Below are positions 43,758 to 43,966 of a stretch of 64,000 bases of DNA, piece after piece. Position 1 is the first letter of the stretch. Every line of letters starts with the position of its first letter. The DNA comes from Pseudomonas kermanshahensis (lineage in GTDB: Bacteria > Pseudomonadota > Gammaproteobacteria > Pseudomonadales > Pseudomonadaceae). The position numbers and the translations under genes were made by a program. Where the stretch lies: assembly GCF_014269205.2 (NCBI RefSeq), contig NZ_JABWRY020000001.1, forward strand, positions 4,636,001-4,700,000, written 5' to 3'. The notes beneath the pieces were generated by a model. That model saw nothing but the letters and a program-made list of their open reading frames with translations, ran no database searches and was not told where the DNA came from.

Positions 43758-43966
43758 GAAAACGCCCGGCATCCGCCGTAATGCTGTTCACTTAGGGCCG
43801 CTTTGCGGCCCATCGCGGCACAAGGCCGCTCCCACAATGTTCGCGCATGCCCTGTAAATAGGGGGATAACGCGGTCGGTGTGGGAGCGGCCTTGTGCCGC
43901 GATGGGCCGCAGAGCGGCCCCGGCATTCTTAAGTGAACAGCATTACGGCATCCGCTGGGCGTTTTC
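43758..43966. terminator. fumA / hydrolase bidirectional terminator, split by an insertion
   Basis: Outer arms GAAAACGCCC (43758-43767) and GGGCGTTTTC (43957-43966) make a 10-bp stem, and the inner GC-ATCC-GC would close it if the inserted element and one duplicated GCATCCGC are removed. With the insertion the loop becomes a long hairpin. Confidence 0.8.
43777..43947. mobile_element. MITE-like element with REP arms inside the fumA terminator
   Basis: 171 bp. Terminal inverted repeats of 18 bp are perfect: CGTAATGCTGTTCACTTA at 43777-43794 and its complement at 43930-43947. Both sides are flanked by an 8-bp direct repeat GCATCCGC (43769-43776 and 43948-43955), as after transposition. The inner arms are REP-like (GGCCCATCGCGGCACAAGGC plus CGCTCCCAC) with a 9-bp difference between arms, and a unique centre of about 45 bp. 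No ORF. Flanking cut fits a target-site duplication; family unknown. Confidence 0.8.

Follow-up and report, generated by a model that had tools for sequence, protein, structure and literature searches.

Our analysis of a 64,000-nt stretch of the Pseudomonas kermanshahensis genome (the window) indicates, with high confidence, that a 167-bp segment downstream of the class I fumarase gene fumA is a non-autonomous element, built from the ends of a subgroup-IS4 insertion sequence (IS) and a REPIN core, and likely moved in trans by a transposase predicted to target terminator hairpins. The transposase that belongs to these ends likely seeks terminators, and it likely carries REPINs around genomes as cargo.

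A REPIN between IS4-type ends in the predicted fumA terminator

At fumA the parts follow one another in the order left terminator arm, 12-bp target copy, TAATGCTGTTCACTTA, REP pair, inverted end, second 12-bp copy (with one mismatch) and right terminator arm (Table 1). The duplicated target reads CGGCATCCGC(C/T)G, where the variable base is the single mismatch between the copies. The fumarase gene itself forms the 3' part of a longer frame (41268-43739), and its start position is approximate.

Table 1. Features of the fumA locus (positions in the window)
Feature	Position	Strand	Remarks
Class I fumarase gene	42216..43739	+	PF05681, PF05683, TIGR00722/TIGR00723 above cut-off
Left outer arm of the split terminator, GAAAACGCCC	43758..43767		Pairs with 43957-43966
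Target duplication, left copy, CGGCATCCGCCG	43767..43778		11/12 identical to 43946-43957; edges from other copies
MITE, 167 bp	43779..43945		Alignment to the 188-bp copies
Left terminal inverted repeat, TAATGCTGTTCACTTA	43779..43794	+	16-bp end search in window and genome
REPIN core, two inverted REPs with GTGG ends facing the centre	43795..43920		51-nt arms; free-standing genomic pairs are built alike
REP head, GTGGGAGCGGCCTTGTGCCGCGA	43813..43835	-	G000:C1:4679813-4679835 (G000, this genome)
REP head, GTGGGAGCGGCCTTGTGCCGCGA	43880..43902	+	G000:C1:4679880-4679902
Right terminal inverted repeat	43930..43945	-	With 43928-43929, the full 18-bp family end TAATGCTGTTCACTTAAG
Target duplication, right copy, CGGCATCCGCTG	43946..43957		Edges from other copies
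Right outer arm of the split terminator, GGGCGTTTTC	43957..43966		Complement of the left outer arm
Carbon-nitrogen hydrolase gene, convergent with the fumarase gene	43969..44841	-	PF00795

The initial annotation had described a 171-bp segment with perfect 18-bp terminal inverted repeats and an exact 8-bp direct repeat on either side. Inverted ends and a flanking repeat are indeed present, but other copies fix the edges of the element at TAATG...CATTA and thereby give 167 bp, 16-bp repeats and a 12-bp duplication with one mismatch; the earlier borders lay two bases too far out at each end because a CG belonging to the target happens to extend the inverted repeat. Its REP-like inner arms were borne out, the stretches 43795-43845 and 43870-43920 being 51 nt long and 90% complementary, as was its view that the stem arms of the terminator had been kept outside the element, GAAAACGCCC and GGGCGTTTTC being complementary. 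With up to three mismatches allowed, the window contains the 16-bp end two times, where 0.08 occurrences were expected, and no shuffle reached two.

The 226-nt region at fumA folds as a single hairpin (-177 kcal/mol, z -18), with the old terminator stem as its foot. The role of the original hairpin in terminating transcription is predicted from sequence, and the split terminator may retain some activity, since pairing of its two arms is preserved at the base of the long hairpin. A plain terminator scan of positions 43600-44100 found no terminator; terminators split by such elements escape simple scans of this kind. An Rfam scan of the region returned six sub-threshold matches, mainly to microRNA precursors, none of which reached the gathering score, and long hairpins can produce such microRNA-like matches.

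Copies in this genome and uninterrupted sites in relatives

A search of the whole genome with the 16-bp end, allowing two mismatches, gave 13 occurrences and none for a reversed-pattern control. Ten of them bound five complete elements (the 167-bp window copy, three of 188 bp and one of 79 bp) and the other three belong to half copies. The ends are therefore not confined to this locus, as the initial annotation had allowed that they might be, but recur in 11 further places at the same threshold. Each complete element lies across a terminator-like hairpin and has an 11-12-bp duplication; the duplications read CGGCATCCGC(C/T)G, CCGCCGAGGCG, CGCATGATTGCG, CGACATGTGCG and CGCCATACGGCG, and the flanking arms are complementary at 8, 7, 8, 8 and 6 of 8 bases.

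The three 188-bp copies share 184-186 of 188 bases with one another. The window copy corresponds to the 188-bp element less 21 bp: in alignments with a 21-bp gap each, 165 of its 167 aligned bases are identical to L044 and L047, and 164 to L045. The 79-bp copy has lost 109 bp, including most of the REPIN. Transposition as a unit leaves this kind of trace: nearly identical copies at separate sites, every one with a duplication of its own. The window element also has what characterises a MITE: it is short, has 16-bp repeats, a 12-bp duplication (one mismatch) and no transposase, belongs to a set of five complete copies, and has autonomous relatives with the same ends in other genomes (L086-L092). 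At one site in this genome (L046, G000:C1:1858893) a lone end lies within half of a terminator, and next to it come a short REP-like stretch and then unrelated DNA; this arrangement suggests a breakpoint where a copy once lay.

At fumA we read the loci of 32 relatives, taken from 395 genomes with a match and from the loci of another search, and found the ends in none of them within 400 bp 3' of the gene; a segment shared by all relatives would have spoken against the initial annotation, and this is not what was observed. One relative, G221, has the homologous hairpin uninterrupted, with GGAACGCCCGGCCCACGCCGGGCGTTTTC in place, and it is the sole clear case at fumA, as most other spacers among the 32 are too diverged to count as empty sites. 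Two candidates, G024 and G025, were rejected on this ground, the ends being absent there and the spacer too diverged. The site of the 188-bp copy L044 is an uninterrupted terminator-like hairpin in 29 of 29 relatives' loci read (the best 29 of 198), and three of them (L341, L342 and L346) have exactly the stem-loop, AAAAAACCCCGCCGAGGCGGGGTT, that is predicted from joining the L044 flanks. The earlier proposal that an element with transposon ends and a REP-pair core landed in the predicted fumA terminator is upheld.

The parent insertion sequence

The end pattern TAATGCYGTTCACTTA is present in 44 of 199 genomes of the genus, and its reversed control in none. End pairs 1,422 bp apart were found in G121 (three times), G059, G128 and G046, and a 1,420-bp version with a stop in G064. 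The 1,422-bp elements enclose a single frame of 443 aa, and their ends are the same 18 bp as those of the MITE. The frame matches Nterm_IS4 (PF13006) and DDE_Tnp_1 (PF01609) above cut-off and reaches 264.5 bits with NF033592 (cut-off 115), as a one-frame transposase of the IS4 family would. Its translation contains YQERWEIELGFRDIK, which agrees with the YREK motif Y(2)R(3)E(6)K as defined in the text of the subgroup survey (De Palmenaer et al. 2008, PMC2266710). That text also gives subgroup IS4 a length of 1,400-1,650 bp, -AATR--------WTW ends and duplications of 10-13 bp, all of which the parent IS fits: the element measures 1,422 bp, its ends read TAATGCTGTTCACTTA, and 47 of the 48 clear duplications described below fall within the range, one being 14 bp (24 of the 72 elements in that set have no clear duplication).

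IS and MITEs have the outer 18 bp in common and nothing further. None of the 48 short cores showed similarity to any of nine full-size IS at an E value of 0.01, and the idea that the short MITEs are simple internal deletions of the IS is unsupported, no core matching it. Other elements that retain the IS ends, L094 and L097 (764-1,061 bp), do look like deletion forms. In G046, internal-deletion forms of a related IS were seen at G046:C1:3366792-3367388, 5305655-5306251 and also 53133-53731; they bring the first ~69 and the last ~95 transposase residues close together, two of them in 217-aa frames, and to judge from the reading frames their products are possibly binding-only proteins. Several larger or half elements (L096, L098, L116, L118 and L119) have the same ends and other cargo, and all share ..CATATCCGTTTCTGCGGT.. 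beside one of the ends.

The initial annotation had looked for a parent transposase with the same ends; it exists in relatives and was not found in this genome. The transposase query gave no match to this 24-contig assembly, in which loss during assembly is possible, and positive controls worked in the same search. It matched 20 of the 44 genomes with ends, some of them by fragments or distant relatives only, and gave no match in 23 others of the 44. A megablast search of plasmids with the IS gave no match. The parent IS would have been present when the copies moved and would have been lost afterwards.

Terminator hairpins as the probable target

The set used for target analysis comprised 72 elements with both ends, from 199 genomes, in which one end was exact and the two had at most four mismatches in total; some of the more divergent end pairs may be chance pairs, for example L171. 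We scored each site by the number of complementary bases among the eight outside the duplication, with 200,000 random sites in the fetched loci as a control. A clear duplication was present in 48 elements (12 bp in 19, 11 bp in 17, 13 bp in nine, 10 bp in two and 14 bp in one). Among these, arms of at least 6/8 were found in 32 (control 3.1%), of at least 7/8 in 23 (0.41%) and of 8/8 in 13 (0.05%), and the remaining 16 had arms below 6; of the 24 elements without a clear duplication, eight had arms of at least 6 and 16 did not. A cruder earlier test gave stems of at least six pairs at 20 of 36 element sites, compared with 1.8% of window positions. Split by size, arms of at least 6 occurred in 10/11 elements of 1 kb or more, 6/13 of 301-999 bp and 24/48 of up to 300 bp; the long forms are strictest in target choice and the short elements laxer. 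Some short elements sit elsewhere, several of them in REPs (e.g. L105, L120, L163 and L201).

In public genomes the transposase query led to 73 loci, of which 32 full or nearly full copies were tried and 28 could be mapped at both ends (two of these, L263 and L268, are L093 and L209 of the 72-element set). Arms of at least 6/8 were present in 26 of the 28, spread over six or more genera (Pseudomonas, unclassified Pseudomonadaceae, Xanthomonas arboricola, Azotobacter, Pontibacterium, Marinobacterium, Gilvimarinus and Pokkaliibacter) and including all 11 mapped copies from Xanthomonas arboricola; the exceptions were L237 (arms 4) and L256 from Reinekea (arms 5). The strain Xanthomonas arboricola pv. 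juglandis CFBP 2528 has at least 11 full-length IS copies (L242-L251 and L266), all across terminator-like hairpins.

Insertion might instead be unselective, with survival mainly in intergenic terminators because copies elsewhere do harm. Copies within genes would indeed be purged, and the window copy does lie between convergent genes; however, the 26 transposase-bearing copies lie exactly across a hairpin and not just anywhere between genes, and purging of harmful copies would not centre duplications on a hairpin axis. We regard this explanation as unlikely. The duplication was centred on the axis at 36 of 45 paired sites (67 sites in total) and off by one at the other nine, regardless of its length (10-14 bp); L268 is the same insertion as L209, hence 35 of 44 distinct paired sites.

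A closer competitor agrees with our account in everything except how the target is read. The transposase would recognise a linear pair of inverted half sites (AAAAGCCC ... GGGCTTTT) at a flexible distance, with no folded hairpin, and terminators would be hit because they contain the motif. The outer arms do show a base preference besides pairing, with C at 75-90% in the last two positions on the left, G at 85% in the first two on the right and A/T runs beyond, and the spacing from AAA to TTT is 16-21 in 39 of 42 measurable sites. IS4 itself has the target AAAN20TTT, and according to an old report it was reportedly found in the pheST attenuator. On the other hand, duplications of 10 to 14 bp stay centred on the axis, and other arm sequences are used if they are paired (AGGGC/GCCCT, AAACGC/GCGTTT). 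We give the linear reading a little under an even chance. At one site, L175 (G151:C187), the flanking target copies are inverted rather than direct (CGGTTCAATCG / CGATTGAACCG), an arrangement that copying of one arm from its partner via the long hairpin could produce.

REPINs as probable cargo

The core of the window element has the build of a REPIN, two inverted REPs that are repeated in the genome. With up to one mismatch, REP heads of the window type number 45 in this genome, eight of them in the four two-ended elements with an intact core, and free-standing REP pairs without ends occur as well (e.g. L016, L017, L020, L022 and L024). The 48 short cores of the wider set comprise 34 with REP heads in both orientations (25 under a stricter rule), three with heads in one, eight of the CCCCTCTCCC type and three unclassified, two of which look like deletion remnants. 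The eight CCCCTCTCCC-type cores had been labelled 'fluorescens-type, one' by a loose pattern and are kept apart from the REP counts.

Where compared, the REP cargo is matched to the host. For the window type, 40 matches were counted in G157, a genome with an element of this kind (L111), and eight further genomes gave no match. A second type, GTGGCGAGGG.., has 275, 1,000, 452 and 236 matches in G131, G160, G010 and G173, whose elements carry it; elsewhere it has 65 in G178, four in G121 and six in G137, with no match in G000, G157, G078 and G064. The GTGG ends face the centre in G000 and face outwards in the GTGGCGAGGG type, and this opposite orientation speaks for at least two separate captures.

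REPINs have movers of their own, and a RAYT (Y1 transposase) could in principle have placed the REPIN in the terminator, the outer repeats being incidental. This genome has five Y1_Tnp (PF01797) matches, one of them with an exact window-type REP ~70 bp past its frame. The same ends, however, bound IS elements with a transposase, and they bound cores of other REP types, which refutes a RAYT as the full account; moreover, copy L048 has no REPIN and still has the ends and the duplication. An origin through a RAYT alone is thus very improbable. One Y1-type transposase gene in this genome (L368, G000:C5, frame 1429-1884) has REPs of two types nearby, one identical to the window REP head.

The initial annotation had offered two options, a chimera of a MITE and a REP pair or a vehicle for REP pairs, and both are compatible with these data. 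Beyond its view lay the wider findings that the regular target of the family is the terminator hairpin and that several REP types are carried in other genomes.

A model for the spread of the elements

In the model that we favour, the transposase works in trans, taking the 18-bp ends as its substrate and placing them across a terminator loop; it would need only these 18 bp, because IS and MITE share nothing else. What it reads would be either the complementary pair of half sites (AAAAGCCC-CG ... CG-GGGCTTTT) or a hairpin folded from them. The REPIN would have been captured between the ends, perhaps as a consequence of these elements landing in REPs too; possible routes are insertion of elements in REPs or repair after excision. 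A more ambitious version, which we put forward tentatively and hold to be somewhat less probable than its negation, is that one Pseudomonas-wide IS4 lineage inserting into folded terminator hairpins has repeatedly captured the host REPIN, so that RAYTs multiply it and the IS4 transposase delivers it to terminators, building giant hairpin terminators.

Comparison with known systems

The survey of subgroup IS4 (PMC2266710) remarks on 'spectacular apparent insertion specificity in left and right target arms' in some members, and terminator targeting would explain these conserved arms. Its main text does not contain the word terminator and describes no REP cargo or MITE, and the parent IS may be among its members. 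A hairpin-guided choice of target, with duplications following the hairpin axis, becomes testable in the IS4 family.

IS1272 / TnSha1, of the IS1182 family, inserts in hairpins, several of which are transcription terminators confirmed by RNA-seq, according to the text of PMC4923244. The elements described here likewise insert in hairpins such as terminators, but IS1272 is of another family, and its blunt cuts remove part of the hairpin and leave no target duplication, whereas the present elements duplicate 10-14 bp around the axis. All copies of ISRm22 (IS4 family) lie in palindromic REPs in the account given in PMC1525189, and ISPpu9/ISPpu10 are other REP-targeting IS. Some elements here lie in REPs as well; unlike ISRm22, however, the family mainly targets terminator hairpins and has the REP as cargo too.

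With the REPINs and RAYTs of Bertels and Rainey (2011, PMC3116915), as their text presents them, the present elements share a core that is an inverted REP doublet of the REPIN kind, in a genome where Y1-type transposases are present. The difference is that here the ends of a DDE-transposase element enclose the REPIN, and the copies in which it has spread have these ends as their borders. This would be a second route of REPIN transport besides RAYTs, and it bears on the spread of REPs and on their frequent placement at gene ends. In P. fluorescens SBW25, R0 and R2 were proposed in the text of Silby et al. (2009, PMC2718517) to be trans-mobilised MITEs, on the ground that two IS elements are flanked by the same inverted repeats, and they show a bias towards tail-to-tail locations. 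There, REP-like repeats are themselves the ends, whereas here separate IS4 ends enclose a REP pair. MITEPsy1 and MITEPsy2 of P. syringae (Bardaji et al. 2011, PMC3189936) are Pseudomonas MITEs with IS-like ends, and transposition of MITEPsy1 was observed; their ends are IS5-like and Tn3-like, the duplication of MITEPsy1 is 4 bp, and the main text of that paper contains neither 'terminator' nor 'IS4'. The available text of a MITE review (PMC10969869) and of PMC9208149 holds no closer parallel.

A literature search that left figures, supplements and most subscription papers outside its reach returned no REPINs within IS4 ends and no terminator targeting by IS4. These two features, REPINs enclosed by IS4 ends and an IS4 lineage that regularly targets terminators, are thus apparently new in that they did not turn up there. 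They join features that are already known from the texts cited above: insertion in hairpins (IS1272), conserved target arms (subgroup IS4), REP targeting (ISRm22) and the proposed help of IS elements in moving REP-like repeats (SBW25).
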